Assembly (NCBI RefSeq): GCF_041200025.1
Contig: NZ_CP165628.1
Coordinates: forward strand, 1,984,001-2,048,000
Length of the DNA stretch: 64,000 bases
DNA from: Rouxiella sp. WC2420
GTDB taxonomy: Bacteria; Pseudomonadota; Gammaproteobacteria; Enterobacterales; Enterobacteriaceae
Reading direction: 5' to 3'
Position numbers and translations under genes: made by a program. Of the stretch, positions 2,343 to 25,649 are shown in pieces (the stretch's first letter is position 1; every line of letters starts with the position of its first letter). The notes beneath the pieces were generated by a model that was not told where the DNA came from, did no database searches, and saw nothing but the letters and a program-made list of their open reading frames with translations.

Positions 2343-2398
2343 AATATATTTTACTGAAAAGCTATAGCCAGGTTTTATCTGTGATCCAATAGTCTTAT

Positions 2399-3502
2399 TT
2401 ACTTTTGACTGCCGGGATAATCGGTATAGCCATGCTCTGTGCCGCCGAAAAGCGTACTGCCTTCGAAATCTGCCAGTGGAAGATTTTGCGCCAGACGATG
2501 TGGATAATCTGGATTGGCAATAAAAGAGCGACCAAATGCCACCAGATCGGCATAGCCATTTTCGAGTACCCATTCTGCGCGGTCTTTATCGTATTTGCCT
2601 GCAACAATAATAGGGCGCGTAAATCTTTCGCGAATATCCTTACGGAAAGTTTCAGTAAACTGAGGCGCGTCGTCCCAATCTGCTTCGACAAGGTGCATAT
2701 AGGCAATCCCTTTTTCTTGCAGGAAAGCGGAGGCATCGAGAATTGTTGGCAAAATATCCGGGCAATCCATTCCACGAGCGGTGAGAAACGGCGCAAGACG
2801 GATTGCAGTTCGCTCTGCACCCACTTCATCGACAACGGCATTAACGACATTCTTCAAAAAGCGCAGCCGATTTTCACGAGAACCGCCGTACTCGTCGGTG
2901 CGCACATTGGATGTGGTGCGTAAAAACTGGTCAACCAGATAACCATTGGCACCGTGAATCTCTACGCCATCAAATCCGGCGGCGATTGCATTACGTGCGC
3001 CGTTGCAAAAATCATCGACAACGCCAGCGATCTCTTCGCGTGTCAAAGCTCGCGGGGTCGGGCAGTCGGTCATGGCACCTTTGCCGGTCACAGGATCAAC
3101 CTTCCAGATTTGTCCTTCGAATGGAACGGCAGAGGGCGCAACAGGAAGCCTGCCATCATGAAAATCAGCGTGCGACATACGGCCAACGTGCCAAAGTTGA
3201 AGGAATATCCGCCCACCGGCTGCATGGACTGCATCAGTTACCTGTCGCCATCCTGCAACCTGTTCGGCACTGTAAATGCCTGGAGTAAAGGAATAGCCTT
3301 TTCCCTGCGGTGATATCTGCGTCGCTTCGGTGACTATCAATGCCGCCGAGGCTCGTTGGGCATAGTAGCGAGCATTCATTTCATTCGGCACGTCTCCCGG
3401 CTGCGTACTGCGCGCACGAGTCATGGGAGCCATAACGATACGGTGCGGCAGGGTATTATTGCCGATAACTGTGGGCGTAAAAAGGCGTGAGCTGTTCTGC
3501 AT
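2399..3502 (-). CDS. Old yellow enzyme family FMN oxidoreductase (NemA-like)
   Basis: A 367-residue TIM-barrel flavoprotein of the old yellow enzyme family, which reduces activated C=C bonds or nitro/maleimide electrophiles with NAD(P)H. Near the N-terminus it has RIVMAPMTRARS. The substrate-anion-binding pair appears in EIHGANGYLVDQF (His and Asn), followed by GGSRENRLRF, as in N-ethylmaleimide reductase. The start is the ATG at 3502, where the conserved MQNSSRLFTP begins after a GGAG; a longer open frame upstream (to 3577) lacks family similarity. It lies 82 bp downstream of the NTF2-like gene on the same strand and may be co-transcribed with it under the divergent LysR. The physiological substrate is unknown. 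Confidence 0.88.
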   Translation of the reverse strand: MQNSSRLFTPTVIGNNTLPHRIVMAPMTRARSTQPGDVPNEMNARYYAQRASAALIVTEATQISPQGKGYSFTPGIYSAEQVAGWRQVTDAVHAAGGRIFLQLWHVGRMSHADFHDGRLPVAPSAVPFEGQIWKVDPVTGKGAMTDCPTPRALTREEIAGVVDDFCNGARNAIAAGFDGVEIHGANGYLVDQFLRTTSNVRTDEYGGSRENRLRFLKNVVNAVVDEVGAERTAIRLAPFLTARGMDCPDILPTILDASAFLQEKGIAYMHLVEADWDDAPQFTETFRKDIRERFTRPIIVAGKYDKDRAEWVLENGYADLVAFGRSFIANPDYPHRLAQNLPLADFEGSTLFGGTEHGYTDYPGSQK

Positions 3503-3584
3503 AATTGAAAATTCTCCAGTTAATGATTGGCTGATGAGTCGCAGACTTTCTTGTCTGCAGACCCATATTGTCGGCACTGCGCCA

Positions 3585-4199
3585 TTAGTGTTTAGCCACT
3601 AGCCCAACCTGTTGCAGGAAGGTCAGGTTGTCTTCCAAATGCCAGTTTTCGACAATTTTCCCATTATTTATCCGATAGATATCAGTAGCTATAAAGTTCA
3701 CGGATTGTCCTTTTCCTTTAACTCCATTGAAGATACCGGTGAAATGACCGCTGAACCGCAGGTGTGATACCACTCGATTACCTACTACCATCATCTGCTC
3801 AACCTCACAGTGAAGATCGGGCACGGCGGCTCTGAATCCTTTCGATGCGATCAAAGGGCATTCAACACCTTGCGGACGTCCAGGGGGTAATGTCCGGTCC
3901 ATAAAGTCAGATGCCAGCGCGCTGCGAGCCAATGCCTCATCGCCGTTAGTCCAGAATGTGTCGTAGCGACGTGCCGCCAGAATTTGCTCGCGGGCCTGTT
4001 GTTTGGACAATCCGGAGTCAACGATTAGCGTGTCGGGGCGAACAAGATTGTCCTGACCCTGGGCGCTGAGGTTTGACCCTGTAGCACCGATGGCGACGGC
4101 AGGAAATGTTGCGAAAAGCGCCGTGGTAAAGCCCGCAGCAATCATCGCGCTAGTTAACGCTTTGAAGCTTTTTTTGAAAGCAGGGAACTGTGTTGACAT
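3585..4199 (-). CDS. Exported SnoaL/NTF2-like protein
   Basis: About 204 residues. The first 42 form a signal peptide: basic FKK, then a hydrophobic Ala-rich stretch, then AIGATG. The remainder resembles the SnoaL-like/NTF2-like cone fold of small ligand-binding proteins and polyketide-cyclase-type enzymes, including RYDTFWTNGDE and a C-terminal NGKIVENWHLEDN typical of the family. The start is the ATG at 4199, preceded by GGAG at 6 bp; an in-frame TTG at 4217 overlaps this ribosome site. It is divergent from the LysR gene at 4325 and upstream of the old yellow enzyme gene. Function is inferred only at fold level. Confidence 0.75.
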   Translation of the reverse strand: MSTQFPAFKKSFKALTSAMIAAGFTTALFATFPAVAIGATGSNLSAQGQDNLVRPDTLIVDSGLSKQQAREQILAARRYDTFWTNGDEALARSALASDFMDRTLPPGRPQGVECPLIASKGFRAAVPDLHCEVEQMMVVGNRVVSHLRFSGHFTGIFNGVKGKGQSVNFIATDIYRINNGKIVENWHLEDNLTFLQQVGLVAKH

Positions 4200-9365: not shown

Positions 9366-9737
9366 TCAGCTTTCGAGCTTACTGTCATATTCCTGCCGTG
9401 CGCGCTCGACTGCGGGCAAATTATCTTGAGTCCAGTTGAACAGGGCCTCGAAAGGAACTTTCAGCGTGCGGCCAAGCGGCGTTATCTCGTATTCAACGGC
9501 GATCGGCGAAGTATCAATGACATGACGTTCAATAATGCCGTTGCGCTGTAATTTTCTCAGACTCTGGGTTAGCGCTTTTTGCGTGATGCCTTCCAGTTCG
9601 CGCTTTAGCACGTTGAAACGCCGTGGTTGCTGGCACAGAATGGCGAGTATCAGCACTGACCATTTATCGGCAATTTGGTCCAGCAATAATCTATGCGGGC
9701 AGCTTGCGCGAATAAGAATGGGATGTTCGTCAGACAT
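9366..9737 (-). CDS. HxlR family transcriptional regulator
   Basis: 123 residues with the compact winged-helix HxlR domain: ADKWSVLILAIL, RFNVLKRELEGITQKALTQSLRKLQRNGII, then the wing region SPIAVEYEITPLGRTL. A single Cys lies near residue 13, the position at which several HxlR relatives (YodB, HypR, QorR) sense electrophiles or oxidants by thiol chemistry. The ATG is preceded by AAGGA. Divergent from the old yellow enzyme gene at 9840 with a palindrome between them, so it is likely a repressor of that enzyme. Confidence 0.9.
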   Translation of the reverse strand: MSDEHPILIRASCPHRLLLDQIADKWSVLILAILCQQPRRFNVLKRELEGITQKALTQSLRKLQRNGIIERHVIDTSPIAVEYEITPLGRTLKVPFEALFNWTQDNLPAVERARQEYDSKLES

Positions 9738-9787
9738 GGTAGTTTCCTTGAGTATACCTGGTAGCTTTTAAGTGCCTAATTGACACC

Positions 9788-9806
9788 TAGTATACACAAT
9801 ATACTA
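9788..9806. promoter_or_regulatory. HxlR operator candidate (TAGTATA-N5-TATACTA)
   Basis: Perfect 7-bp inverted arms with a 5-bp spacer lie 33 bp upstream of the oxidoreductase start. A further GTATAC half-site lies at about 9752-9757. The placement between HxlR and its divergent neighbour suits the operator. Confidence 0.6.
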
Positions 9807-9839
9807 TCAAGGCTACTAACCCTAACGGAGTATTAGCCT

Positions 9840-10961
9840 GTGACCACTTCCAATGTAGACATACTGTTCCAGCCTTTTCATTTGAAAAACCTGACATTAA
9901 AGAACCGAATCGTGATGGCACCCATGACGCGATCTTTTGCGACGCAAGGTATTCCCGGGCAAGAGATCGCGGCTTATTACCAGCGCCGTGCCGAGGGGGA
10001 AGTTGGGCTGATTCTGACTGAGGGCACGGTCATCAACCGACCTGCCTCACGAAACGAAGCCAATATTCCTTTCTTCCACGGAGAGCAGGCACTGGCTGGC
10101 TGGAAAAAAGTAGCTGCCGATGTTCATGCTGCCGGTGGCAAGATAGGGCCACAGCTTTGGCATACGGGATCGGTTGCCAGTTTTCTGTCGGATTGGGTTC
10201 CCGATGCGCCGGTAGAGAGTCCATCGGCACTTGTCGCGCCCGATCAACCGCGCGGTGATGCCATGAGCGAAGAGGCGATTGCAGACACTATTTCCGCATT
10301 TGCCCAGGCTGCGTCCGATGCAAAACGTCTAGGTTTTGACGTGGCTGAGATCCACGGCGCGCACGGTTACTTGATCGACCAATTCTTCTGGTCTGGCACT
10401 AACCTGCGTACTGACAACTACGGCGGCGCGACGCTGAAACAGCGAGCTCGTTTTGCCGCCGAAGTGGTGAAAACCATGCGCGAAGCCGTCGGGCCTGATT
10501 TTCCGCTGATTTTGCGCGTAAGCCAGTGGAAGCAGCAGGACTTTACGGTACGCCTTGCCCCTACGATTACAGAAATGACCGACTGGTTATTACCTTTGGT
10601 TGAGGCCGGTGTCGATATTCTTCACTGCTCGCAGCGCCGTTTTTGGGAACCCGAGTTTCCTGAAATTGACGGGGAGCAGGGTTTAAATTTCGCGGGTTGG
10701 GCAAAAAAACTCACCGGAGCGGCAACGATTAGCGTGGGTTCAGTGGGCTTGGCGGGCGATTTTATGAGCGCTTTTGCCGGTGAAACTTCCCATCCGGCCA
10801 GCATCGAGAATCTGATCGCCCGCCTCGAACGCAACGAGTTTGACCTGATTGCCGTGGGCCGTGCACTGTTGAGTGACCCGCAGTGGGTGACTAAAATCCG
10901 CACTGGCAATCACGCTGAGTTGAAAGATTTTACCGCCGCCGCGTTGGCCGAACTGGTTTAA
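9840..10961 (+). CDS. Old yellow enzyme family NADH:flavin oxidoreductase
   Basis: 373 residues, starting at GTG 9840 after AACGGAG. The N-terminus LKNRIVMAPMTRS is typical. The active site reads EIHGAHGYLIDQFFW, a His/His pair rather than the His/Asn of the enzyme at 2399, placing it in a different subgroup. The GGSxxNRxRF segment is altered to GGATLKQRARF. It probably reduces quinones or alpha,beta-unsaturated carbonyls using FMN and NAD(P)H. Control by the adjacent HxlR protein suggests induction by electrophiles. Confidence 0.88.
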   Translation: MTTSNVDILFQPFHLKNLTLKNRIVMAPMTRSFATQGIPGQEIAAYYQRRAEGEVGLILTEGTVINRPASRNEANIPFFHGEQALAGWKKVAADVHAAGGKIGPQLWHTGSVASFLSDWVPDAPVESPSALVAPDQPRGDAMSEEAIADTISAFAQAASDAKRLGFDVAEIHGAHGYLIDQFFWSGTNLRTDNYGGATLKQRARFAAEVVKTMREAVGPDFPLILRVSQWKQQDFTVRLAPTITEMTDWLLPLVEAGVDILHCSQRRFWEPEFPEIDGEQGLNFAGWAKKLTGAATISVGSVGLAGDFMSAFAGETSHPASIENLIARLERNEFDLIAVGRALLSDPQWVTKIRTGNHAELKDFTAAALAELV

Positions 10962-12635: not shown

Positions 12636-13135
12636 GATTCCCCTGAAATAACTGGTTAAAAAATAGCAAAAATAAAGGCTTAGCATATTGATTATAGTAC
12701 AGACAAAAAAATACCCGCACGCGGCGGGCAAAGTTGCTTAGAACACAGGGGAAAAGACTAATAAAGCTAGCAGAGCTTTTGTTATATTGCTAATCGGGCA
12801 GGAAAAAATAATTCTCAAATCAACGTTGATTAGTCGTTAATTGTGGCAAGTTTAGTGGGGAGTCAAAATAACATTTGTGCATTTGAATTTGCACTCTTGG
12901 CTTATTCATTTTTAGCGTTAGCTTTGCCGTTATTGAGCATTTACCTTTATCGCAAAAAGCGGAATATTTGATTTAAAACATAAACGCACTGCGCTGTCTG
13001 GTACTTAGATCAATCACTCTCGTTTGCTTATCCTCGATGCCGTGGAGACCCAGGATTGATGGAATCATTTACCAAAATGCTTTAATTGCCGAGTGCCGAT
13101 ATCCCTTTTGTCTGATTATTATTTTGGAGTTGAGC
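12636..13135. other. 500-bp intergenic region between divergent genes
   Basis: Carries the promoters of the antiporter and the cysteine-synthase-like gene. One small hydrophobic ORF (12843-12971, listed separately) is the only coding candidate. A palindrome-like GTGCA...TGCAC lies near 12878-12895. No other structure was recognised. Confidence 0.5.
12843..12971 (+). CDS. Possible small membrane protein (about 43 codons)
   Basis: A frame open from GTG 12843 to TGA 12971 encodes a hydrophobic segment (FALLAYSFLALALPLLSIYLY) followed by the basic tail RKKRNI, the shape of a single-pass small membrane protein with its C-terminus inside. Translation start is doubtful: the only clear Shine-Dalgarno-like run (GGGGAG, 12857-12862) lies inside the frame, 10 nt before an ATT codon. 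Not recognised from any known family. Confidence 0.25.
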   Translation: MASLVGSQNNICAFEFALLAYSFLALALPLLSIYLYRKKRNI

Positions 13136-14176
13136 ATGACTATCCACAATGCTATTACCGAGTTGGTAGGCAATACGCCATTATTAAGGCTTAATCGATT
13201 TAGTGAGCGGTTTAATTTGGACGTCGACCTGCTTGCCAAACTGGAGTATTTCAATCCAAATCACAGCATCAAAGATCGTATTGCACTGGCCATGATTGAA
13301 GAAGCCGAACGCACGGGTAAATTAAAACCCGGCGTGACGCTGGTAGATACAACCAGTGGGAATACCGGGATTGGATTGGCGGCAATTGCCGCAGCAAAAG
13401 GTTATAAATTTCGCGTTTATTTACACGATAAACTCAGCGATGAGCGTTTTGCTATTCTCAGCGCGTTTGGGGCCGAAATTATTCCATTCAGTCACGTACC
13501 GGGGTTTGATAAAATACTCGAAAACAGCGACGGCGATTTTGTAGCCGCCGCCAAATGGCTGGCGGATAATGTGATCCGTAAAGAGCCGAACATTTTTTTC
13601 ACCTACCAATTGGAAAATCCGGCTAACCCTTTGGCGCATTATCGCAACACGGGGCCTGAAATCTGGCAGCAAACCGGCGGGCAGGTAGATATTGTTATCG
13701 CCTCGGTGGGTACCGGCGGTACGCTTTCAGGGGCGGGGAAATATCTCAGGCAGCTTAACCCGGATATCAAACTGATTGCCGTGGAACCCGGCGTGAATTC
13801 TATTCCTGACCGTGACAATCCTGAGGCCAAAGAAATTACCGGTGTTCATGCTTTTAGCCACGTTTTACCGGAGCGGGTGCCGTTAACGTTGGACAGAGAA
13901 TTGTTCGACGAAGCTATCGCCATCGAAAGTTGGCAGGCGGTGCAGGCGGCTCGTGAAGTGGCAACAACCGATGGCATTTTGATTGGCGAATCTTCCGGTG
14001 CAGTACTGTTTGCTGCGCGAGTGGTGGCTCGTCGCCCGGAAAATAAAGGTAAGCGTATTGTCACTATTCTTGCCGACAGTGGCTTGACTTATCTGTCGAC
14101 CGGCCTGTTTGATAGCACGCTCAGCGTTGAGCAAATAAAAATCGACGCCCTGCGCAAAAGCCGTGTCAGCGCCTAA
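13136..14176 (+). CDS. Cysteine synthase family PLP enzyme
   Basis: 346 residues of the beta-family fold type II PLP enzymes. It has NHSIKDRIA with the PLP-binding Lys, TSGNTGIGLA binding the substrate carboxylate, and GTGGTLSGAGKYL binding the PLP phosphate. This fits O-acetylserine sulfhydrylase: O-acetylserine plus sulfide gives cysteine plus acetate. It is longer than CysK and a minor paralogue is likely; cystathionine-beta-synthase-like activity cannot be excluded. The start is ATG 13136 after GGAG. Its position next to the sulfonate-utilisation cluster suggests use during sulfur starvation. Confidence 0.88.
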   Translation: MTIHNAITELVGNTPLLRLNRFSERFNLDVDLLAKLEYFNPNHSIKDRIALAMIEEAERTGKLKPGVTLVDTTSGNTGIGLAAIAAAKGYKFRVYLHDKLSDERFAILSAFGAEIIPFSHVPGFDKILENSDGDFVAAAKWLADNVIRKEPNIFFTYQLENPANPLAHYRNTGPEIWQQTGGQVDIVIASVGTGGTLSGAGKYLRQLNPDIKLIAVEPGVNSIPDRDNPEAKEITGVHAFSHVLPERVPLTLDRELFDEAIAIESWQAVQAAREVATTDGILIGESSGAVLFAARVVARRPENKGKRIVTILADSGLTYLSTGLFDSTLSVEQIKIDALRKSRVSA

Positions 14177-14326: not shown

Positions 14327-15274
14327 TTACTGCTTATCCAGAGACCAAGTCGCAGTATTTACGTCAACACTTACCGGTAGTAGTCCGGTGCTCTTGAATT
14401 TATCGGCGATGATCTGCTGTTGTTTAAACACTTCCGGCGTCATTCGCTCCGCGCCGAACGGCATTCTCGCCAGTGCTTTTGCCCAGATCTTCTTGTCCAG
14501 ACCGGTGGATGTAGACTGGATTTCTGCCGTTTCATCAGGATGCGCGTTTGCCCAGTCGCTGGTGGACTTTAGCTCGTCAATTAATTTCAACGCGGTTTGC
14601 GGATAAGTTTCGGCAAATTTTCTGCTCGACAGGAAGAAAGTGTAATGTGGCACCAAATCCACGGCGTTGGTCACTTCTCGGGCGTTGGCATGGGTTTCCA
14701 CTTCAGCCAGGAACGGGTCCCAGATAGCCCACGCATCAATGGCTCCGCGTTGGAAGGCGGCGCGGGCATCGCTTGGGGCCAGGTATACTGGGGTAATGTC
14801 TTTATAACTCAGACCGGCTTTCTCCAACGCAGCGACCAGCAAATAGTTGACGTCAGAACCTTTATTCAGCGCCACGCGTTTTCCCTTAAGATCGGCCACA
14901 GTTTTGATGGTCGAATTTGCGGGTACCACGATAGCTTCTGTTTTCGGACTGGCAGGAGAGTGCGCCAGATACACCAGATCGGCCTTCGCCGCCTGGGCAA
15001 TCACTGGGGGTGCATCACCGGTTGCCGCGAGGTCAATACTTCCGACGTTGAGGCCTTCAAGCATTTGTGGACCCGCGGTGAATTCCACCCACTTAACCGC
15101 AATACCCTGTTTCTTGAAATCGGCATCCAGCGTGCCGCGATATTTCAGCAGCGCGAAAATATTGGCTTTTTGATAGCCAATATTGACCACTTTTGGCAAC
15201 GCCTCGGCACTAGCCGAGGGTATCGAACCTAAAAGCACTGCCGCAGACAGCACACTACGCACTAAAATTTTCAT
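14327..15274 (-). CDS. Periplasmic sulfonate-binding protein (SsuA-like)
   Basis: 315 residues. An N-terminal signal peptide (MKILVRSVLSAAVLLGSIPSASA) directs export, and the mature protein has the two-lobe fold of nitrate/sulfonate/taurine-binding ABC proteins: VVNIGYQKA, FTAGPQMLEGLNVGSIDLAATGDAPP, LKGKRVALNKGSDVNYLL, AIDAWAIWDPF. It should capture aliphatic sulfonates for an ABC importer. No matching SsuB ATPase or SsuC permease occurs in the window, so it may feed a transporter encoded elsewhere. It lies 105 bp downstream of the sigma-54 regulator on the same strand, and that regulator contains a homologous domain. ATG follows AGGAAAA. Confidence 0.9.
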   Translation of the reverse strand: MKILVRSVLSAAVLLGSIPSASAEALPKVVNIGYQKANIFALLKYRGTLDADFKKQGIAVKWVEFTAGPQMLEGLNVGSIDLAATGDAPPVIAQAAKADLVYLAHSPASPKTEAIVVPANSTIKTVADLKGKRVALNKGSDVNYLLVAALEKAGLSYKDITPVYLAPSDARAAFQRGAIDAWAIWDPFLAEVETHANAREVTNAVDLVPHYTFFLSSRKFAETYPQTALKLIDELKSTSDWANAHPDETAEIQSTSTGLDKKIWAKALARMPFGAERMTPEVFKQQQIIADKFKSTGLLPVSVDVNTATWSLDKQ

Positions 15275-15379: not shown

Positions 15380-17269
15380 TTACTCGGCCCAGACCGCATC
15401 GCGAACGTTAATAGCACGCGCAATTAATCCCAGCGCATAGAAACGATCGGCGATGGCTTGCTGGTCGCGGATAATCCCTAAACCCATTCTCTGGGTTTGA
15501 TGACTGCGGCGCGCCAGCGCAAGATTTAGCGAATCTGTGGCCAGTCCAAGCTCGGCGGAGAGCAGGCTGGCCGCCTCGTTTCGGTTGGCATCGATATAAC
15601 GCCCGGTCTGCACCAGCGCGTCCATCAACTGATGCAGCAGATCGCCTGAATGGGTGGCAAATTCGCGGTGCGCCAGATAAAACTGATGATTGTTCACCCG
15701 CCCGCTGCCGTTGGCGATAACGCGCAGTTGCCCGCAGCGTTCGGCGTCGCTGAGCAGCGGGTCCCACATCATCCAGGCATCAACGGCGTGGTGATCGCTG
15801 GGCGTCAGCGGATATTTAGGCGGCGAATACACGACTCTCACGTCGTCAAGCGTCAGGCCTGCCTCGTCGAGAATCTGCACCAGCAGATAATGAACGTTGG
15901 AACCTTTATTTACTGCGATACGTTTACCCCGCAGATCGCTGATATTTACGATGGGGCTTTCATTCGCGACCAGCAGCGCCACGCTTTGCGGTGCCGCAGG
16001 TTCCCAGGCGACATACAGCACCCGATTATCACTGGCCTGTGCAAACAGCGGCGGAACTTCGCCAGTGGTGCCGAAATCAATCTCGCCGTTGCTCAATGCA
16101 TGCAGTAATTGAGGACCGGCGGGGAATTCACTCCACAGCACGCTAATCCCGCGGCCCGCGAACTGCTGTTCCAGCGATTGTCGCGCCTTGAGAATCCCGA
16201 GATTGCCAAATCTTTGATAGCCAATCCGCAGCTCGCGTTCATGGGGCGCGCGATTGCGGTGACTGCGCAGGCCGTTGCCACTGAGGCTGCGTCGCGGTTT
16301 GATTAAACCGAGATGCCCCAGATGCGTGCGCAGTGTGTGACGACTGATCCCCAGCAGCGACGCGGTTTGCAGCTGATTGCTGCCGCTGATTTCAAAGGCA
16401 TTGCGCACCAGTGCATCGGTGACTCGTTGATAAATCTGCTGATTGCCGCTTTGCAGATGCTGACGGATAAAGTCGTCCAGCGCCTGTTCACTGGCGGGTA
16501 AAGTGTCTGCGCTCACCGAGCTGAGACGCAGTTGGCGTGGAGAAATGATCGTTTCGCGGCTGAGCAGCACGGCATTGTGCAGGGTATTTTCCAGCTCGCG
16601 AATATTGCCCGGCCACGGATATTCCATCAAGGCAGCCATCGTCTCGTCGCTAAGTTGTAGCTGAGGGCGGCCGAGACGACGGGCATACAGCCGCAGAAAG
16701 TGCTCTGCCAGCAGTGGAATATCTTCACGACGCTGGCGCAGCGGCGGCAGGGTTACGGCTGCAACATTGAGACGATAATAGAGATCTTCCCGGAAACGGC
16801 GTTCGCGGATCGCCTGCGCTAAATCAACGTGAGTCGCAGCAATTACCCGCACATTGACCTTCACGGCGCGGTGCGAGCCAACCCGGGTTACCTCACGTTC
16901 CTGCAACACTCGTAACAGTTTGACCTGCAAAGGTAAACTCAGCTCGCCTATTTCATCCAGCAGCAGCGTTCCGCCCTCGGCGGCTTCAAACCAACCCTGA
17001 TGGCGATCGCGTGCGCCGGTAAATGCGCCTTTTTCATGACCAAACAGTTCCGACTCCGCCAGGCTTTCCGTGAGCGCACCGCAGTTCACTGCCAAAAATG
17101 GCTGCTGCCTGCGCGGGCTGTGGTGATGCAGATAACGGGCCACCACCTCTTTGCCGGTTCCGGTTTCCCCTACAATCAGCACAGTGGCGTCGGTAGGGGC
17201 GAGGCGGTCAAGCACGCTTTGAAAGGCGAGCGACGCGGGATCGATCAAAGTAGGGCCGTGATTCTGCAT
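15380..17269 (-). CDS. Sigma-54 activator fused to an SsuA-like sensor domain
   Basis: 629 residues with an unusual order of domains. Residues 1-240 are an AAA+ sigma-54-interacting domain lacking any N-terminal receiver: Walker A GETGTGKE (34-41), GAFTGA (81-86), Walker B LLLDEIGE (102-109). Residues about 280-325 are a Fis-type HTH ([19 protein letters not shown]). Residues about 346-629 are clearly homologous to the periplasmic SsuA-like protein encoded next door ([67 protein letters not shown]) but have no signal peptide, so this domain should act in the cytosol. I infer that it senses a sulfonate or related ligand and gates ATPase activity. ATG 17269 follows GGAGTGAAAG. Its target is the divergent operon starting at 17546. 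Confidence 0.92.
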
Positions 17270-17346: not shown

Positions 17347-17400
17347 ATTTGTTGCAAATGCGGCAGCGTGGTGGCAGCGGCTGTTGCATTTGCAACAAAT
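17347..17400. promoter_or_regulatory. Long inverted repeat, likely enhancer site for the sigma-54 activator
   Basis: ATTTGTTGCAAATGC (17347-17361) and GCATTTGCAACAAAT (17386-17400) are perfect 15-bp inverted arms separated by 24 bp. The right arm overlaps a smaller palindrome GTTGCA-TT-TGCAAC (17383-17396). The pair lies 60 bp upstream of the -24 element, where a sigma-54 activator normally binds, and between the regulator and the operon. Confidence 0.75.
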
Positions 17401-17459: not shown

Positions 17460-17477
17460 TTGGCATACTTCCTGCTT
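17460..17477 (+). promoter_or_regulatory. Sigma-54 (RpoN) promoter of the organosulfur operon
   Basis: TTGGCAT-N6-TGCTT has the invariant GG of the -24 element (17462-17463) and GC of the -12 element (17474-17475) at the correct spacing against the consensus TTGGCACG-N4-TTGC. Transcription would start near 17487, about 59 nt before the ssuD start. An AAA+ activator gene is divergent from it. Confidence 0.75.
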
Positions 17478-17545
17478 TAACCTTTATAACCAAACGGATG
17501 TTTTGTATCTAATAAATTAAGATATCGTTATATAGGAAAGTGATA

Positions 17546-18718
17546 ATGAGCGACTCAGTACAGGACAACATCAACGTATTCTGGTTTCTACCGACCCATG
17601 GAGACGGGCGTTATCTGGGAACCACTGAGGGTGGCCGTCCGGTAGATTTACCTTATTTACAACAAGTTGCATTAGCTGCCGATAGTCTCGGCTACTACGG
17701 CGTGCTCATTCCAACCGGTAAAAGCTGTGAAGATTCCTGGCTGGTAGCCTCGGCATTGGCACCGATTACCAAAAAACTGCGTTATCTGGTCGCGGTGCGT
17801 CCGGGACTGCAACCGCCGACGCTGGCGGCACGCATGGCGGCAACGCTGGATCGACTGTCAGAAGGCCGCTTGCTTATCAACGTGGTGACCGGCGGCGATC
17901 CGGTAGAAAACAAAGGCGACGGTATTTTCCTCAGCCACGCCGAGCGTTATCAGGTGACGCGCGAATTCCTTGACGTTTATTCCCGCCTGCTGAAGGGCGA
18001 AAAAGTTGATTACCACGGCGAACATATTCATGTCGAGGGCGCTGAAGTGCTGTTTCCGCCGGTTCAGGAAGATGGCCCACCGCTGTATTTCGGAGGGTCT
18101 TCTGACGAGGCCATCGACGTGGCGGCTAATCAGATCGACACCTACCTGACCTGGGGTGAACCGGTGGAGCAGGTTAAAGAGAAGCTTGAAGTGGTGCGCA
18201 GACGTGCCACCGCGCGTGGTCGTAAACTGAATTACGGCATTCGTTTGCACGTTATTGTGCGTGAAACCGAAGAGGAAGCCTGGGCAGCCGCTGACCGTTT
18301 AATTGCTCATCTTGATGAAGACACTATCGCCGCCGCGCAGAAAATTTTTGCGCGCATGGATTCCACCGGGCAGGCACGTATGAGCGCCCTGCACGGCGGT
18401 TCTCTCGACGGACTGCGTATTGCGCCAAACCTGTGGGCCGGTGTCGGGCTGGTTCGCGGCGGCGCGGGGACGGCGCTTGTGGGTAATCCGCAGCAGGTCG
18501 CCGAGCGTATTCGTGAGTATCAGGCGCTGGGCATCGAGAACTTTATCTTCTCTGGTTATCCGCACCTCGAAGAGGCTCATCGCTTTGCCGAACTGGTGAT
18601 GCCGCTGCTGCCACTGGCCTTTAACGCCGAAAAAAAGCAGCGCACGGTGAATACCGGGCCGTTCGGCGAAACCATCGGTGGCGATCGCCGTCCGGTGAAA
18701 CAAACCAGCGCCAGCTAA
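17546..18718 (+). CDS. ssuD: FMNH2-dependent alkanesulfonate monooxygenase
   Basis: 390 residues of the bacterial luciferase (LLM) fold, close in length and sequence to E. coli SsuD. The active-site segment [10 protein letters not shown] carries the Cys equivalent to E. coli Cys54, and [14 protein letters not shown] holds the Arg/His pair. It oxidises alkanesulfonates with O2 and FMNH2 to aldehyde plus sulfite. It is the first gene after the sigma-54 promoter. The start is ATG 17546 rather than the in-frame GTG 17540, with AGGAAAG upstream. No flavin reductase (SsuE) is encoded here, so FMNH2 must come from another locus. The C-terminus [17 protein letters not shown] matches SsuD. Confidence 0.96.
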
Positions 18719-18728
18719 GGAACTATTC

Positions 18729-19832
18729 ATGAGCCAACAATCAATCGATCAACCTATTCAGTTTGCCTATTGGGTGCCAAACGTTTCTGGCGGGCTGGTG
18801 ATCAGCAATATTGAACAGCGCACCAGCTGGGATTTCGACTACAACCGCAAGCTGGCGCAAATCGCCGAACGTGCCGGGTTCGATTACGCACTGACGCAAA
18901 TTCGTTTTACCGCCGGTTACGGGGCTGACAATCAGCATGAGTCCGTGAGTTTTTCTCAGGGGCTACTCGGTGCTACCGAAAAGCTGAAAGTGATTGCCGC
19001 ACTGCTGCCCGGTCCGTGGAATCCTACATTGGCGGCCAAACAAATCGCCACTATCAGCCATCTAACCCATGCCCGCATCGCGGTAAATATCGTCAGCGGC
19101 TGGTTTCGCGGTGAGTTTAAGGCGATTGGCGAGCCGTGGTTGGACCACGAAGAACGCTACCTGCGATCCGAAGAGTTTATCCGCTGCCTTCGCGGTATTT
19201 GGCAGGAGGAAACGTTTAATTTTGCCGGTGATTTCTACCGCTATCGTGACTATGTGATGAAGCCAAAACCGCTTAATCCGCTGCCAGAAATCTTCCAGGG
19301 TGGCAGTTCACGCGCGGCTCGCGACATGGCCGCTCGTGTCTCCGACTGGTATTTCACCAATGGCAATAGTGTAGAAGGCATCCGCCAGCAGGTTGAAGAT
19401 ATTCAGCTGAAAGCAGCTGCTAATCAGCATCAGGTCAAGGTAGGCGTTAACGGTTTTGTCATTGCCCGCGATACCGAACAGCAGGCGCAGCAGGTATTGC
19501 AGGAAATTGTGGCTCAGGCCAATCCCGAAGCGGTAAAAGGCTTTGCCCATGAGGCAAAAAATGCCGGAAATGCTTCGCCTGAAGGTGAAGGTAACTGGGC
19601 AAAATCCACCCTTGAAGATTTAGTCCAATATAACGATGGCTTTAAAACCAATCTGATTGGTACACCGCAGCAAATTGCCGAGCGCATCATTGCACTGAAA
19701 AATACCGGCGTCAGTCTGATGCTGCTGGGCTTCCTGCACTTCCATGAGGAGGTCGAGTTCTTTGGCCGCGAGGTTATCCCGCGGGTTCGTGAATTGGAAC
19801 GCCAGCAGCAGCGGGAGCTGGCGCATGGCTGA
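18729..19832 (+). CDS. sfnG: LLM flavin monooxygenase, dimethyl sulfone monooxygenase SfnG-like
   Basis: 367 residues, luciferase-like fold. The N-terminus FAYWVPNVSGGLVIS and DYNRKLAQIAERAGFDYALTQIRF match SfnG, which in Pseudomonas converts dimethyl sulfone to methanesulfinate with FMNH2. HARIAVNIVSGWFRGEF and the C-terminal LMLLGFLHFHEEVEFFG are also typical. It begins 10 bp after ssuD with AAGGA as ribosome site. Its last 8 bases overlap the next gene, giving translational coupling. The substrate in this host could be dimethyl sulfone or a longer sulfone. Confidence 0.9.
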   Translation: MSQQSIDQPIQFAYWVPNVSGGLVISNIEQRTSWDFDYNRKLAQIAERAGFDYALTQIRFTAGYGADNQHESVSFSQGLLGATEKLKVIAALLPGPWNPTLAAKQIATISHLTHARIAVNIVSGWFRGEFKAIGEPWLDHEERYLRSEEFIRCLRGIWQEETFNFAGDFYRYRDYVMKPKPLNPLPEIFQGGSSRAARDMAARVSDWYFTNGNSVEGIRQQVEDIQLKAAANQHQVKVGVNGFVIARDTEQQAQQVLQEIVAQANPEAVKGFAHEAKNAGNASPEGEGNWAKSTLEDLVQYNDGFKTNLIGTPQQIAERIIALKNTGVSLMLLGFLHFHEEVEFFGREVIPRVRELERQQQRELAHG

Positions 19833-21240
19833 CCGGCGTATCGTCATCGTCGGCGGCGGTTTTTCTGGTACCGCGCTGGCAGTACACCTGCTGCGCAACG
19901 GCGCTAGTGGACTGAAAGTTACGGTGATAGAACCCCGTGAACAGCTGGCGCGCGGCGTGGCCTATGGCACGCAGGATCCGGCGCATCGCATCAATGTGCC
20001 AGCCGAGCGGATGCAGCTTTCAGCAGCCGAAGAGGGCGATTTTGATCGCTGGTATCGAACCACCGAGGCTTTTAATGAAGATACTGCGGCCCGCTGGCAC
20101 GACGGCAAAGTCTATCCGCAGCGCGGCCAGTTTGGTGTTTATATCGCCGAACAGCTTTCCCGCGCGGCAGCGTCTTCTCCTGTCGAGTTGACCCACGTCC
20201 GCGAGCCGGCGGTGGCGCTGGAGGGCGACACAGTGATCACCGCTTCCGGCCAGCGTTACCAGGCTGATGAGGTGGTGCTGGCAATCAGCCACCCTCCACC
20301 GGCATTGCCCGGCGCGCTTGAAGCATTAAAAGATCACCCGGCAGTGATTGCCAATCCGTGGGAGGTTGATGCTTTGGACCGTGTTGCAGAACAGGATCGC
20401 GTGGCGATCATCGGCAGCGGTTTAACCATGTCTGACGTAGTGGCTTCGCTAAATCGATTGGGTCATCAGGGGCCGGTGGTGGCATTTTCCCGCCGTGGCC
20501 AGCTGCCGCGCCCGAATCTCGGCGGTTCTTTTGAACCGCGCCCGTTGAATTATCAGCAACAACAAGCCAGCACCGCGCGCGGCTGGTTGCGACGGGTCCG
20601 CCAGGAGGTGGCGCAGGCGGCGGAGCAAAACCTGCCTTGGCAGCTGGTACTGGATGACATTCGCCTTCACGGCCAACAGCTGTGGCAGCAACTTTCCCTA
20701 AACGAGCAGCGCCGTTTTTTGCGCCACCTCCGCCCGTGGTGGGACGTGCACCGCTACCGCATTGCACCGCAGGTCAGCGCGGTGATTGAACAGCTGCACA
20801 GTGAAGGGCGTTTGCAGCTTCAGGCGGCTCGTCTGCTGAGTGCCAAAGCCGAAGGTAATGCTTTGCGGCTGACTCTGCAGCCACGAGGCGGCGAACCGAA
20901 GATTTTGCTCGTCGATAAGCTGGTAGTCACTACCGGACCGGCTCACGGCACCTTGCTAAAAACCGATGCGTTGCTTAACCAACTGGCGACGCAGGGGCTG
21001 ATTCAGGCCGATCCGCTGGCGCTGGGCATCGCTGTCAATGCTGATTCGCAGACCTTAAATCTCGACAACGAGGCCAACCCGCATCTTTACGTGGTGGGTC
21101 CATCGGCGCGTGGCCGTTTTGGCGAGCTGATGGGTCTGCCGCAGGTTGCCGAACATGCTGAAACGGTGGCTCGTCAATTGCTGGACATCCACGCTAGCCA
21201 GCCGGTTGAGCGATGTCCAACTTCACCGAAAATCTTCTGA
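19825..21240 (+). CDS. FAD/NAD(P)-binding protein (HpyO/NAD_binding_9 type)
   Basis: 471 residues from ATG 19825, overlapping the sfnG stop by 8 bp (ATGGCTGA). It opens with IVIVGGGFSGTALAVHLL, the FAD-binding GxGxxG fold, then RGVAYGT and PAERM, and a second dinucleotide site VAIIGSGLTMSDVV; the C-terminus has LYVVGPSARGRFGELMGLPQV. This is the FAD-NAD(P)-binding family often encoded beside organosulfur monooxygenases. Its reaction is not established. It might supply reduced flavin to its neighbours, since no SsuE is present, but that is inference. Confidence 0.85.
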   Translation: MADRRIVIVGGGFSGTALAVHLLRNGASGLKVTVIEPREQLARGVAYGTQDPAHRINVPAERMQLSAAEEGDFDRWYRTTEAFNEDTAARWHDGKVYPQRGQFGVYIAEQLSRAAASSPVELTHVREPAVALEGDTVITASGQRYQADEVVLAISHPPPALPGALEALKDHPAVIANPWEVDALDRVAEQDRVAIIGSGLTMSDVVASLNRLGHQGPVVAFSRRGQLPRPNLGGSFEPRPLNYQQQQASTARGWLRRVRQEVAQAAEQNLPWQLVLDDIRLHGQQLWQQLSLNEQRRFLRHLRPWWDVHRYRIAPQVSAVIEQLHSEGRLQLQAARLLSAKAEGNALRLTLQPRGGEPKILLVDKLVVTTGPAHGTLLKTDALLNQLATQGLIQADPLALGIAVNADSQTLNLDNEANPHLYVVGPSARGRFGELMGLPQVAEHAETVARQLLDIHASQPVERCPTSPKIF

Positions 21241-21337: not shown

Positions 21338-22738
21338 ATGTCATCGCAACGTGAAATTCGCTTAAACGCTTTTGATATGAACTGTGTCGGTCACCAGTCA
21401 CCGGGTCTGTGGGCACATCCGCGCGACCGCTCATGGCAGTATAAAGATTTGGAATATTGGACCGATTTGGCACGATTGCTGGAGCGCGGAAAATTCGACG
21501 GCCTGTTTATCGCCGACGTGCTGGGGGTGTACGACGTGCTGGATGGTAACAACGACGCGGCCATTCGCAACGCCACTCAGGTGCCGGTCAATGATCCGTT
21601 GGCGCTGATTACCCCGATGGCGCTGGTTACCGAGCATCTTGGATTCGGCCTGACGGCGTCGTTGTCGTTTGAACATCCTTATCCGTTTGCCCGTCGCCTG
21701 TCGACCTTGGATCATCTGACCAAGGGGCGCATTGGCTGGAATATCGTGACTTCGTATTTGGAAAGCGGCGCGCGCAATATTGGCTATCAGGCGCAGGCCG
21801 ATCATGACGCACGCTATGACTACGCCGACGAATATTTACAGGTGGTCTACAAGCTGCTGGAGGGGAGCTGGGAAGAGGGTGCAATCTTACGCGACCGCGA
21901 GCGTCGGGTGTTCAGTGATCCAGGTAAAATCCACCCGATTAATCATCAGGGAACCTTCTTCCAGGTGCCGGGAATTCACCTTTGTGAGCCGTCACCGCAG
22001 CGCACGCCGGTTCTTTATCAGGCAGGGGCTTCCAGTCGCGGCAAGCAGTTCGCCGCCGAACATGCCGAGTGCGTGTTCGTTGCCGTGCCGTCAAAAGTGC
22101 TGCTGAAGAAAACGGTGGCGGATATTCGTCGTCGTGCCGCAGAGGCTGGGCGCGATCCGCGCAAGGTACTGATTTTCAATCTGCAAACAGTGATCGTCGG
22201 CGAAACCGACCAGCAGGCACAGGCCAAGTGGCTGGATTATAAAAGTTATGTCAGCTACGAGGGCGCACTGGCGCTGATCTCCGGCTGGACCGGCATCGAC
22301 TTTGGGCAATATCAGCCGGATCAGGTGCTAAAACATCTGCACACCAACGCCATTCAGTCGGCAGTTGAAACCTTCTCGACCGCCGATCCTGACCGCCAGT
22401 GGACCGTGCAGGCATTGGCAGACTGGGTCGGCATTGGCGGCTTTGGTCCACTGATTGTCGGAAGTGCCGCAACAGTGGCCGACGAGCTGCAAAGCTGGGT
22501 CGAAGAGACCGATGTTGACGGTTTTAATCTGGCCTATGCGGTGACGCATGAAACCTTTACCGACGTAGTTGACTTGCTGGTGCCCGAGCTACAAAAACGT
22601 GGCGTTTACAAGCAGGATTACCAGACGGGCACGCTGCGTGAAAAATTGTTTAATCAGGGTGACCGTTTGCAGGCACCGCATCCGGGCGCGGGTTATCGCC
22701 GCAACACAGAGCAGGAAACCCAGCCTGTGCAAAGCTAA
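21338..22738 (+). CDS. NtaA/SnaA/DszA-type FMNH2-dependent monooxygenase
   Basis: 466 residues of the long LLM subfamily that includes nitrilotriacetate monooxygenase NtaA, SnaA and DszA. Recognised segments: NAFDMNCVGHQSPGLWAHP at the N-terminus, GLFIADVLGVYDVL, SFEHPYPFARRLSTLDHLTKGRIGWNIVTSY and LYQAGASSRGKQFAAEHAE. It oxidises a C-N or C-S bond using externally supplied FMNH2. Given the neighbours, a sulfone or thio-compound is the likely substrate. ATG follows CCAGGGAG. It starts 98 bp after the FAD gene, so a separate internal promoter is possible. Confidence 0.9.
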   Translation: MSSQREIRLNAFDMNCVGHQSPGLWAHPRDRSWQYKDLEYWTDLARLLERGKFDGLFIADVLGVYDVLDGNNDAAIRNATQVPVNDPLALITPMALVTEHLGFGLTASLSFEHPYPFARRLSTLDHLTKGRIGWNIVTSYLESGARNIGYQAQADHDARYDYADEYLQVVYKLLEGSWEEGAILRDRERRVFSDPGKIHPINHQGTFFQVPGIHLCEPSPQRTPVLYQAGASSRGKQFAAEHAECVFVAVPSKVLLKKTVADIRRRAAEAGRDPRKVLIFNLQTVIVGETDQQAQAKWLDYKSYVSYEGALALISGWTGIDFGQYQPDQVLKHLHTNAIQSAVETFSTADPDRQWTVQALADWVGIGGFGPLIVGSAATVADELQSWVEETDVDGFNLAYAVTHETFTDVVDLLVPELQKRGVYKQDYQTGTLREKLFNQGDRLQAPHPGAGYRRNTEQETQPVQS

Positions 22739-22978
22739 TGAAAGGTAAGTTTTAACCTGTTTTCTGGTTCGCAACCGGGTCGGCTCCATGCTTGCCCGGC
22801 TTTTGCATTGCTATTAATTAATTCTTTCAACTTATTGATTTTAATGAATTTATTATCAATATTTGTTGTTTGTTATCCCCCGTAAAGCCCTTTATAACTG
22901 CTTCTTAGTACTTGTTAAAAGCGGTTGCACCTGTTTGCCAACACTTCTCTTCACATGATTAAAAAAACAGAGGGTTTT

Positions 22979-24442
22979 ATGAGCACCATTAATATTGATG
23001 ACGGCATCGATGTGCCGCCATTGCATTCAACACCAATAGGTTCAGTCAGCGACGTGGCTCAGCTGATCAACACCAGTGACAGTAAAAACAGCTATGCCCG
23101 CTGGATAGTTTTTCTGGCGCTGGGCGGCGTGTTTTTAGACGCCTATGACTTGACTACGCTGTCCTATGGCATCGACGATGTGGTTAAAGATTTCAGCCTG
23201 ACCCCAACGCTCACCGGCTTTGTTGCTTCCTCGATTATGCTCGGCACCATTGTCGGCAACCTACTCGGAGGCTGGCTGACGGACAAATACGGGCGCTATT
23301 CCGTCTTTATGGCTGACATGCTGTTCTTCGTGGTTTCTGCTATCGCCGCCGGTCTGGCACCTAATGTTTGGGTATTAATCGGCGCCCGTTTCCTGATGGG
23401 AGTCGGCGTCGGCATCGACTTGCCGGTGGCGATGGCCTATCTGGCCGAATTCTCGAAATTTACCGGCAAAGCCAACAAAGCTTCGCGCGTAGCGGCCTGG
23501 TGCCCGATGTGGTACGCCGCGTCCTCGGTGTGTTTTCTAATCATCTTTGGTTTGTATTTCTTGCTGCCGAAAGAGCATATCGACTGGCTTTGGCGTGCGT
23601 CACTGCTGTTTGGCGCAGTGCCTGCGTTGTTGATCATCGCGGTGCGCAGCAAATTTATGAATGAATCACCGCTGTGGGCGGCCAATCAGGGGGATTTGAG
23701 TGGCGCAGCGCGTATTCTGCGCGATTCTTATGGCATCCAGGCGCATGAAGATAAAGAGGCGATTGCCAAACAGGTCAAACAGACGCCGCCAAAAGTCAGC
23801 TTCCGCGTGCTGTTCCAGAAACCTTATCGCGAACGCACTATCGTTGCCGGAGTGATGAATGTCTGTGTATCTTTCGAATACACCGCAATTGCCTTTTTCC
23901 TGCCATCGATTCTGGCGCAGTTTCTCGGCGCCGGGGTGTTTGAAACTATCTCTGCGTCGCTGGGGCTGAACGCGCTGTTTGCCTTTACCGGCGGCCTGCT
24001 GGGTATGCGCCTGGCGTGGAAATTCCCGTCTCGTCACGTTGCTATTGCCGGTTTTGCCTTGCAGTTTATTGCTCTGGTTGCGCTGGCACTGATTGGCCAT
24101 CCGACGGCGCTTATTGGCATTGTTTTCGCCATCCTGATGCTAGGTCTGTGGTTGTTTGCCGAAGGTTTTGGCCCAGGCGCGCAGATCATGATTTATCCGT
24201 CCCTGTCTTACCCAACTCATATCCGCGCAACCGGCGTCGGTTTCAGCCGATCCTTATCAGGTATCGGCAGTGCGCTGGCACTGTTTATCTTGCCAATTTT
24301 GCAGGCCACTTTTGGCACCAACATGTTCTGGATTGTCTCTCTGAGCGCGCTGCTGCCTATTGCCTTCCTGTTGGTGGTGCGCTTTGAGCCAACCCGCCGC
24401 GATATTGACGACCATACCGAAAATGGAGAACCACATGTCTGA
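22979..24442 (+). CDS. MFS transporter in the organosulfur cluster
   Basis: 487 residues from ATG 22979 after AGAGGG; in-frame upstream starts at 22955 or 22925 lack good sites. About 12 membrane helices, with YDLTTLSYGIDDV in TM1 and GGWLTDKYGRYSV as motif A between TM2 and TM3; MGVGVGIDLPVAMAYLAEF follows. This resembles the aromatic-acid/metabolite:H+ symporter type. It probably imports an organosulfur substrate for the flanking monooxygenases. The last 8 bases overlap the next gene (ATGTCTGA). Confidence 0.86.
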   Translation: MSTINIDDGIDVPPLHSTPIGSVSDVAQLINTSDSKNSYARWIVFLALGGVFLDAYDLTTLSYGIDDVVKDFSLTPTLTGFVASSIMLGTIVGNLLGGWLTDKYGRYSVFMADMLFFVVSAIAAGLAPNVWVLIGARFLMGVGVGIDLPVAMAYLAEFSKFTGKANKASRVAAWCPMWYAASSVCFLIIFGLYFLLPKEHIDWLWRASLLFGAVPALLIIAVRSKFMNESPLWAANQGDLSGAARILRDSYGIQAHEDKEAIAKQVKQTPPKVSFRVLFQKPYRERTIVAGVMNVCVSFEYTAIAFFLPSILAQFLGAGVFETISASLGLNALFAFTGGLLGMRLAWKFPSRHVAIAGFALQFIALVALALIGHPTALIGIVFAILMLGLWLFAEGFGPGAQIMIYPSLSYPTHIRATGVGFSRSLSGIGSALALFILPILQATFGTNMFWIVSLSALLPIAFLLVVRFEPTRRDIDDHTENGEPHV

Positions 24443-25649
24443 ACAACATCACGCTACCCCTGATTATCAACAGATCGCTGCCCGTTTCCGGCCGATTTTT
24501 GCCCGCATCGCCGAAGGCGCGGTGGAACGCGAGCGCAATCGGGTGCTGGCGGTCGAGCCAATTCGCTGGCTGAAAGAGGCTGGTTTCGGCACCTTACGAA
24601 TTCCGGTGAGTCAAGGCGGTTTTGGCGTCACGTTACCGCAGCTGTTTCAGTTGTTAACCGAGCTCGCCGAGGCTGATTCCAACCTGCCACAGGCTTTACG
24701 CGCGCACTTTGCTTTTGTTGAAGATCGCCTGAATCAGCCCGACAGCGAAGCAAGGCAGCGCTGGTTCCGCCGCTTTGCCGACGGCGAGCTGGTGGGCAGC
24801 GGTTGGACAGAAATCGGCAATCTGAAGTTGGGCGAAGTAATAACAAAGGTCACACCGGCAGATAATGGCTGGCTGCTCAACGGGCACAAGTTTTACAGCA
24901 CTGGCTCACTGTATGCCGACTGGATTGATGTTTACGCCCAGCGCGCCGACAACGGCCGCGATGTGATTGCACTGGTCAACACTCATCAGAGCGGAGTCAA
25001 GCTCGACGATGACTGGGACGGTTTCGGCCAGCGCCTGACCGGCAGCGGCAGCACGCGTTTTGAACAGGCCGCGGTGGAGGCGTCGCACGTCTATGACTTC
25101 AGCGAGCGTTTCCGTTATCAGACCGCGTTTTATCAGCACGTTTTATTGTCAACGCTGGCCGGAATTGGCCGTGCGGTCACTCGTGATGCAGCACTGGCAG
25201 TCGGCAATCGCAAACGTATTTACAGCCACGGCAATGCTCGGCAGGTGAAACAAGACGTGCAGGTGTTGCAGGTTGTGGGGCAGATTTCCAGCTGGGCCTA
25301 CGCGGTTGAAGCCACAGTGCAGCAGGCTACCCATGCGTTACAGCTGGCTTTTGAGCTGCATGAAAGTAAAGATGAAGCAGCAATTCAACAGGCAAACGTG
25401 CAGGCCGAGCTTGATGCAGCCAAGGCTCAGGTGATCGCCAGCGAACTTATTCCACGCGCGGCTACTGAGCTGTTCAATGCTTTGGGGGCTTCTGATACTC
25501 GTACCAGTAAAGCGCTGGACAGGCATTGGCGTAACGCGCGCACCGTCGCGTCGCATAATCCGGTGATCTACAAAACTCGTAACGTCGGTGACTGGGAAGT
25601 TAACGGCAGCGATCCGACCTTTATCTGGCAAATCGGCAACGGCGAATAA
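24435..25649 (+). CDS. Acyl-CoA dehydrogenase-like flavin monooxygenase (SfnB/DszC type)
   Basis: 404 residues with the acyl-CoA dehydrogenase fold: N-terminal helices (LKEAGFGTLRIPVSQGGFG), central beta domain (GSGWTEIGN, WLLNGHKFYSTGS) and C-terminal helices (LGASDTRTSKALDRHWRNARTVASHNP). It lacks the usual catalytic Glu context of true dehydrogenases and groups with SfnB/DszC-like monooxygenases involved in sulfur acquisition. Translationally coupled to the MFS gene through an 8-bp overlap, with GGAG upstream. Last gene of the cluster; no clear terminator follows. Confidence 0.86.
   Translation: MSEQHHATPDYQQIAARFRPIFARIAEGAVERERNRVLAVEPIRWLKEAGFGTLRIPVSQGGFGVTLPQLFQLLTELAEADSNLPQALRAHFAFVEDRLNQPDSEARQRWFRRFADGELVGSGWTEIGNLKLGEVITKVTPADNGWLLNGHKFYSTGSLYADWIDVYAQRADNGRDVIALVNTHQSGVKLDDDWDGFGQRLTGSGSTRFEQAAVEASHVYDFSERFRYQTAFYQHVLLSTLAGIGRAVTRDAALAVGNRKRIYSHGNARQVKQDVQVLQVVGQISSWAYAVEATVQQATHALQLAFELHESKDEAAIQQANVQAELDAAKAQVIASELIPRAATELFNALGASDTRTSKALDRHWRNARTVASHNPVIYKTRNVGDWEVNGSDPTFIWQIGNGE

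Follow-up and report, generated by a model that had tools for sequence, protein, structure and literature searches.

The gene at 15380-17269 raises the question of whether a sigma-54 activator can carry a sulfonate sensor behind its DNA-binding domain, and what such a sensor would control. The initial annotation of the window (the whole 64,000-nucleotide stretch of Rouxiella sp. WC2420 DNA analyzed here) had proposed the order AAA+ core, helix-turn-helix (HTH), and solute-binding protein (SBP) domain, and had regarded the place of the sensor as unusual. This departs from published schemes in the available text of PMC3162934 and PMC7175178, where sigma-54 activators of the HTH_8 type either carry their sensor ahead of the AAA+ core or have none. 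Among the four architectures laid out in that part of PMC3162934, only type II has C-terminal control domains, and its HTH is N-terminal. A literature search, covering titles and abstract openings of the top-ranked matches, retrieved no description of an SBP domain behind the HTH of a sigma-54 activator, although an unnoticed earlier entry is possible because about 136 domain compositions of sigma-54 activators were in Pfam at the time of PMC3162934, according to its available text.

The fusion is a single open reading frame on the minus strand with no internal stop codons, and the proposed domain order is borne out by Pfam and NCBIfam matches along its 629 residues and by its recurrence across genomes (Table 1). 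In Pfam, Sigma54_activat covers residues 17-172 (E = 2e-69) and AAA_lid_14 residues 178-249. Walker A, the GAFTGA loop, Walker B, the arginine finger, and sensor II are all intact, at residues 34, 81, 102, 159, and 219, respectively. Since the AAA+ core starts already at residue 17, the fusion has no N-terminal sensor. The HTH_8 match reaches 13.8 bits, under the Pfam cut-off of 22, and the region aligns to the C-terminal end of the NtrC and NorR models of NCBIfam. The C-terminal domain aligns to the profiles expected of it, namely NMT1 (residues 370-552, 32.6 bits against a Pfam cut-off of 20.5) and SsuA_fam TIGR01728 (residues 347-628, 177.9 bits against an NCBIfam cut-off of 163.5). Its reported homology to the SsuA-like protein whose gene lies 105 bp downstream (14327-15274, minus strand) extends over its full length, at 38% identity and without gaps over the 284 residues 345-628. 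A hydropathy scan found a signal-peptide-like N-terminus in this free neighbor and no such stretch in the fusion, where the highest 19-residue hydropathy is 1.26; together with its internal position, this supports the proposal that the fused SBP domain stays in the cytoplasm. Residues 324-344, which span the linker, have pLDDT below 50 in the full-length model, which is weak overall (pTM 0.46) and too poor to place the domains against each other.

Table 1. Fusion gene, flanking genes, and candidate regulatory elements, in window coordinates.
Feature	Position	Strand	Basis
Free SsuA-like binding protein, signal-peptide-like start, 105 bp downstream of fusion	14327..15274	-	ORF, NCBIfam, and alignment
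Fusion gene, 629 aa: AAA+ sigma-54 activator, HTH, and SsuA-like domain	15380..17269	-	ORF, Pfam/NCBIfam, and family genomes
SsuA-type sulfonate-binding domain (by sequence), residues 345-628	15386..16237	-	NCBIfam, alignment, model, and fold match
Variable linker, residues 326-344	16238..16294	-	Alignment columns and pLDDT
Fis-like HTH region, residues 278-325; HTH_8 below cut-off; conserved NQxQAAxLLGISRxxLRT	16295..16438	-	Pfam and alignment
AAA+ core and lid, residues 17-249; no N-terminal regulatory domain	16523..17221	-	Pfam and motifs
Upstream activator palindrome 1 (candidate), 1 mismatch to TGYTGCNNNNGCARCA	17350..17365		Motif scan
Upstream activator palindrome 2 (candidate), 0 mismatches, 32 bp from palindrome 1	17382..17397		Motif scan
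Predicted sigma-54 -24/-12 promoter of ssuD operon, TGGCATACTTCCTGC	17461..17475	+	Motif scan
Leader element TATAAC-N36-GTTATA, between predicted start site and Shine-Dalgarno	17485..17532	+	Motif scan
ssuD/msuD-like alkanesulfonate monooxygenase, divergent predicted target gene	17540..18718	+	NCBIfam and structure-sequence match
sfnG dimethylsulfone monooxygenase, 590.8 bits against cut-off 382.95	18729..19832	+	NCBIfam
FAD/NAD(P)-binding oxidoreductase; listed start overlaps sfnG, later start likely	19744..21240	+	ORF list and domain search
NtaA/DmoA-family FMN-dependent monooxygenase	21338..22738	+	NCBIfam
MFS transporter	22925..24442	+	Domain searches
SfnB-like acyl-CoA-dehydrogenase-fold oxidoreductase, 255.2 bits, below SfnB cut-off 430.9; listed start overlaps MFS gene	24360..25649	+	NCBIfam

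An assembly or sequencing error that fused an activator gene to a binding-protein gene, which the initial annotation had considered at about residue 340, has a negligible probability and can be excluded because one-frame, full-length homologues occur in 21 of the 198 sampled genomes of the family (own genome counted), in named genomes, and in two Alphaproteobacteria, at about 45-99% identity across many genomes and collections. The homologues in the other family genomes of that sample are 60-84% identical. Among the best 80 loci from named species genomes, at least 35 are fusions (L046-L080), hosted by Serratia, Ewingella, Rouxiella, Pantoea, Erwinia, Klebsiella, Raoultella, Kluyvera, Lonsdalea, Pluralibacter, Hafnia, Enterobacter, Tatumella, Pseudocitrobacter, Entomohabitans, and one unclassified enterobacterial MAG; the closest of these 80 matches is from Serratia sp. 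M24T3 (99%). One of the fusions (L080) is broken and lies inside a decayed cluster, and another (L063) is truncated at a contig end. The remaining 45 loci are free SsuA-like proteins because the match starts behind the HTH (query residue 47 or later) or, in the three exceptions L084, L100, and L102, because the frames are short (336, 376, and 354 aa).

Plasmids carry the fusion as well. A match at E ≤ 1e-100 was found in 72 plasmid records, 71 of which cover at least 80% of the query, and by genus the plasmid-borne matches include 65 from Pantoea, two from Klebsiella, and one from Chimaeribacter, the partial copy in the 72nd record being from Pseudomonas silvicola. Two plasmid records of Methylocystis iwaonis hold a full-length homologue (44.7% identity over 98% of the window protein), and plasmid pAB510b of Azospirillum sp. 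B510 encodes a fusion that shares 50% identity with 95% of the Methylocystis protein. Both halves were detected by Pfam or NCBIfam in each of these two fusions, the SsuA_fam score of the Methylocystis protein being 139.8 bits, under the cut-off of 163.5. A restriction of the fusion to Enterobacterales is thereby refuted. The fusion nevertheless seems rare outside the enterics, since sampling 369 genomes of the class, 295 of the order, and 398 of the phylum gave no full-length fusion from outside the family of the window, and querying 396 genomes of the phylum with the Methylocystis protein added nothing. A second Methylocystis iwaonis copy on another plasmid (NZ_AP027143.1, 304366-307212) is 96% identical and split by an IS5-family transposase gene. 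Among the matches listed, intact plasmid-borne fusions are labelled either as a sigma-54 regulator or as an aliphatic sulfonate ABC transporter binding protein, and these database names are misleading.

Modelled alone (39 sequences), the SBP domain reached a mean pLDDT of 91.5 and a pTM of 0.89. Its top PDB match was 3ksx, the SsuA of X. citri with MOPS (TM 0.90), followed in order by X. citri SsuA with MES and 3e4r, and then by E. coli SsuA. In X. citri SsuA, Gln36, Gly68, Gly86, and Ser141 hold the sulfonate and Trp185 faces the pocket, as described in the available text of PMC3839906. These five positions align to Q352, G385, G403, N458, and W502 of the fusion, so that four of the five are kept and S141 is replaced by Asn. 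Q352, G385, G403, and W502 are identical to their SsuA counterparts and invariant in 34/34 fusions (the window and 33 from named genomes, with L063 and L080 excluded), in all of which Asn458 takes the place of Ser141. The Azospirillum and Methylocystis fusions keep the four residues and the Asn. Among 57 rows gathered as free SsuA-like proteins, a set picked by likeness to the fused domain, Asn occupies this position 26 times, Asp 15 times, and Ser 13 times, although one Asn row (L080_14) is really half of the broken fusion, which leaves Asn in 25 of 56.

Since four of the five sulfonate-site positions are kept and invariant, and the neighbors are organosulfur genes, sensing of a sulfonate inside the cytoplasm is, judged from the sequences, the best explanation for the fused domain. 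The initial annotation had implied direct sensing of a sulfonate or a sulfur ester; the first part is favored by these residues and neighbors, whereas the second finds no support here, since X. citri SsuA reportedly bound MOPS, MES, CHES, and HEPES but not taurine, and neither sulfate nor sulfate esters, as far as the available text of PMC3839906 goes. On the other hand, the Asn458 present in every fusion leaves room for a new ligand, and the domain might sense another small anion in the opposite sense, with sulfate, sulfite, or another product switching the activator off when sulfur is plentiful. The pathway does yield sulfite, according to the part of PMC8234197 available. However, the absence of sulfate binding in X. 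citri SsuA and the retention of the Gln, the two Gly, and the Trp of the sulfonate site speak against such a change of ligand, as does the adjacent divergent gene, a sulfonate monooxygenase in 54 of 56 loci, and we consider it rather unlikely.

These 56 fused loci come from two genome sets that overlap in part, and the 54 with a divergent ssuD/msuD-like gene include the broken L080 with a partial ssuD. The two exceptions are the locus at the contig end (L063) and a MAG locus (L059) in which ssuD is absent but the fusion, the site pair, and the promoter are still there. In the window, the ssuD-like protein scores higher against MsuD 7jv3 (590.7 bits), named so after the available text of PMC8234197, than against E. 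coli SsuD 1nqk (540.3 bits). The fusion gene of Methylocystis lies near sfnG, ssuD, and msuE, and that of Azospirillum between msuE-sfnG and an amidohydrolase-ssuD-acyl-CoA dehydrogenase group. Only 24 of the 56 fused stretches contain a gene closely related (>55% identity) to the free SBP gene, and therefore the fused domain is not tied to the latter. The genome itself also has a Sigma54_DBD (RpoN) match and a second, separate ssuA-ssuD pair (L129).

The intergenic region between the fusion gene and ssuD is patterned alike across loci. Two non-overlapping 16-bp palindromes TGYTGCNNNNGCARCA (at most 2 mismatches) are present in 47 of 48 distinct intergenic regions, the two best being 31-32 bp apart in 46, and a TGGCAY-N5-YYGC promoter is present in 45 of the 48, lying 78-81 bp past the second palindrome in 43. 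Among 9600 mononucleotide shuffles, 8 reproduced the palindrome pair and 10 the promoter; these figures gauge rarity rather than discovery because the palindrome motif was written after viewing the sequences. In the own genome, single palindromes with 1 mismatch number 164 against 54 for the control, and the pair at 17350/17382 is the one 32-bp pair among the 1-mismatch sites listed (up to 2.83 Mb). Azospirillum has palindrome pairs 32 bp apart and sigma-54 promoters at both organosulfur operons. In Methylocystis, a pair 32 bp apart precedes ssuD, where no promoter matched the search expression, and a pair 33 bp apart lies at sfnG with a promoter.

The core and HTH of the fusion resemble SfnR, which citing papers, including the available text of PMC8234197, describe as the sigma-54 activator of dimethylsulfone and methanesulfonate genes in Pseudomonas; sfnR is grouped with the msu operon in pseudomonads in the same text. 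As far as these partial descriptions go, SfnR and the fusion both lack an N-terminal sensor, with the AAA+ core of the fusion beginning at residue 17, and both are linked to msu/sfn genes with the same types of target gene. Moreover, the core and HTH of the fusion are 49-55% identical to unfused proteins encoded behind msuE-msuD-msuC-like genes or within about 9 kb of sfnG, and a similar site pair stands before msuE in 3/3 loci where the unfused gene follows msuE-msuD-msuC-like genes. What sets the fusion apart is the 284-residue SBP domain after the HTH, as 11 unfused proteins end 3-51 residues past the match to residues 1-330 of the window protein. It is accordingly filed here as a fused relative of SfnR and not as SfnR itself.

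At L145, L147, and L149 the unfused homologue (core 51-52% identical) lies downstream of msuE-msuD-msuC-like genes, with sfnG nearby in L145 and L149. Before msuE, each of the three has a 0-mismatch palindrome followed 31 bp later by one with 2-3 mismatches, together with a TGGTAC-type promoter, and before sfnG, L145 and L149 have a single 0-mismatch palindrome and a promoter. Pairs with both sites at ≤2 mismatches and 30-34 bp apart occur in 3 of 12 unfused-homologue loci, that of L149 being the one before msuE; good palindrome sites are absent from the L044 and L152 stretches and from the region before sfnG in L151. The site pair is thus not peculiar to the fusion. Since like pairs stand at the alphaproteobacterial operons and before msuE of unfused loci, core and site go together with or without the domain, and both are of the SfnR kind and probably older than the SBP domain. 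The unfused homologues beside msuD further suggest that the domain is an added input and not a requirement of the pathway. A strict link between domain and ssuD was also rejected: although both are missing from L042, the MAG locus L059 carries the fusion and no ssuD, and msuD can have an unfused SfnR-like gene beside it.

The core-HTH tree (unrooted, SH-aLRT support only, long branches flagged) separates a group of ten unfused rows (9 distinct) from the 34 enteric fusions, with the Azospirillum and Methylocystis fusions as a third branch. Nested within the enteric fusions (forks 100 and 87) is the unfused protein of L042 (G109), a 352-aa activator (9455-10513) in the same gene setting, which keeps part of the operon but lacks ssuD and has no further good palindrome at the expected spacing; this lineage has apparently lost the sensor domain. 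A quick tree of SBP domains, run with no bootstrap, places the 34 fused domains in one clade (SH-aLRT 100), joined there by L080_14 (the broken fusion's C-terminal half), and 16 flanking free proteins in another (100). In a second tree, to which the two alphaproteobacterial fusions were added and from which L080_14, L059_0, and the own tauA-like row were dropped, a branch (95) sets all 36 fused domains apart, though it is short and long branches are flagged, and the flanking free enteric proteins again form their own clade (100). A recent duplication of the adjacent SBP gene is ruled out by the separate clade of the flanking proteins in these trees, and one fusion event followed by one loss would fit the groupings.

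A core that seems to manage alone, as in L042, nested among fusions and keeping part of the operon, and in the unfused relatives that face a similar site pair, could also suggest that the domain no longer responds to a ligand and serves as an oligomerization or protein-contact module. Sensorless activators such as PspF are controlled by protein binding in trans, as the available text of PMC7175178 describes. This reading is very unlikely, however, as the anion-site residues are kept in 34 enteric and 2 alphaproteobacterial fusions, and 89 of 284 SBP columns are invariant in the 34 fusions, compared with 1 of 19 linker columns.

The preferred reading, to which we assign a probability of roughly 0.7, is that the protein is an SfnR-type activator to which a cytoplasmic SsuA-type sulfonate sensor was added behind the HTH and which would be gated by its ligand on the ssuD-sfnG operon. 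The activator would bind the two palindromes 32 bp apart before the divergent operon and, with ATP and RpoN, open the -24/-12 promoter. Under sulfur limitation, a sulfonate that is imported or produced internally would close the C-terminal clamp. Methanesulfonate or another short alkanesulfonate is the likeliest ligand. The former is an MsuD/SsuD-type substrate and the end of the dimethylsulfone route, and it is the first guess because the operon starts with an MsuD/SsuD-type enzyme and, in the window and several other loci, holds SfnG. The ligands of X. citri SsuA given in the available text of PMC3839906 do not mention it. The apo domain may restrain the core, and closing of the clamp beside the HTH would free the core to assemble on the paired sites. 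Because the clamp lies directly behind the HTH, its closure could alter how the dimers sit on these sites and let the AAA+ ring form. Release from restraint is preferred on two grounds: a similar pair stands opposite unfused relatives, and an enteric lineage seems to have lost the domain yet retained some of the operon. Binding of the protein to the sites, the identity of the ligand, activation by it, and restraint by the apo domain are all inferred from sequence. Against a sensor stand the replacement of Ser141 by Asn458, though Asn is common in the free relatives, the unfused homologues beside msuD, and the fusion without ssuD in L059.

Several known systems share part of this design. The fused domain resembles periplasmic SsuA in its whole fold and in the Gln/Gly/Gly/Trp sulfonate site, and differs in lacking a signal peptide and export, in being joined to an AAA+ activator, and in the Asn at the Ser141 position. 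LevR/CelR-type sigma-54 activators correspond to type II. Proteins of this type also have control domains C-terminal to the sigma-54 AAA+ core, but their HTH is N-terminal and their C-terminal domains are phosphorylatable and PTS-related (PMC3162934, available text). SgrR and DsvR are one-component regulators with an HTH and a C-terminal SBP_bac_5 solute-binding domain (PMC13060122, a preprint, available text); they are not sigma-54 activators, have no AAA+ core, and belong to another SBP family. CmpC/NrtC of cyanobacterial ABC importers carry, on the cytoplasmic side, an SBP-like domain C-terminal to their P-loop ATPase; that of CmpC is thought to be a solute-binding regulatory domain (PMC11349869, available text). 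A structure of this type, PDB 9uak, is among the fold matches of the SBP-domain model. CmpC/NrtC differ in regulating transport rather than transcription and in belonging to the nitrate/bicarbonate family. With SBP-fold intracellular sensors thus already precedented in SgrR and CmpC, the protein described here is a sigma-54 activator with a new type of sensor in a new place. We would give even odds to a broader proposal, namely that it represents an undescribed class of Gamma- and Alphaproteobacterial sigma-54 activators in which an SBP clamp behind a Fis-type HTH reads the sulfonate pool and gates the AAA+ ring on a 31-32-bp site pair shared with sensorless SfnR, with at least one lineage running the core ungated. 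From a C-terminal clamp, a signal can pass to the AAA+ ring only by way of the HTH or from one subunit to another. The domain would also be a candidate for a direct sensor of methanesulfonate or another alkanesulfonate in sulfur-starved bacteria, an input that sensorless SfnR leaves open.

A few further features accompany these loci. A cysteine-synthase-family gene (13037-14176) adjoins the free SBP gene in the window and is also present in the near relatives L046 and L048; the remaining related stretches gave no match at >45% identity. In L024, an ABC importer with an NlpA-type lipoprotein (994-3724) follows the monooxygenase genes, and several loci have like-sized genes at this place, beside or instead of the MFS and SfnB-like genes. 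Loci seem to exchange their uptake part while retaining the activator and ssuD. A search of the intergenic region for RNA families gave 8 matches up to E 1, none of which reached the gathering score. Of 48 distinct intergenic regions, 47 have the arms of the leader element (17485-17490 and 17527-17532 in the window) spaced by exactly 42 bp, and the right arm is exact in 41/41 distinct leaders selected by the left arm; the element could be an RNA hairpin or a protein site, as both arms are exact in these 41. It is also present in the unfused locus L042, but absent from the single stretches checked for Azospirillum and for Methylocystis. A similar GTTATATAAC...GTTATAAGG lies directly before a start codon in L129 (about 3460-3490), upstream of the genome's own ssuA-ssuD pair, and is perhaps a shared sulfur-starvation element.
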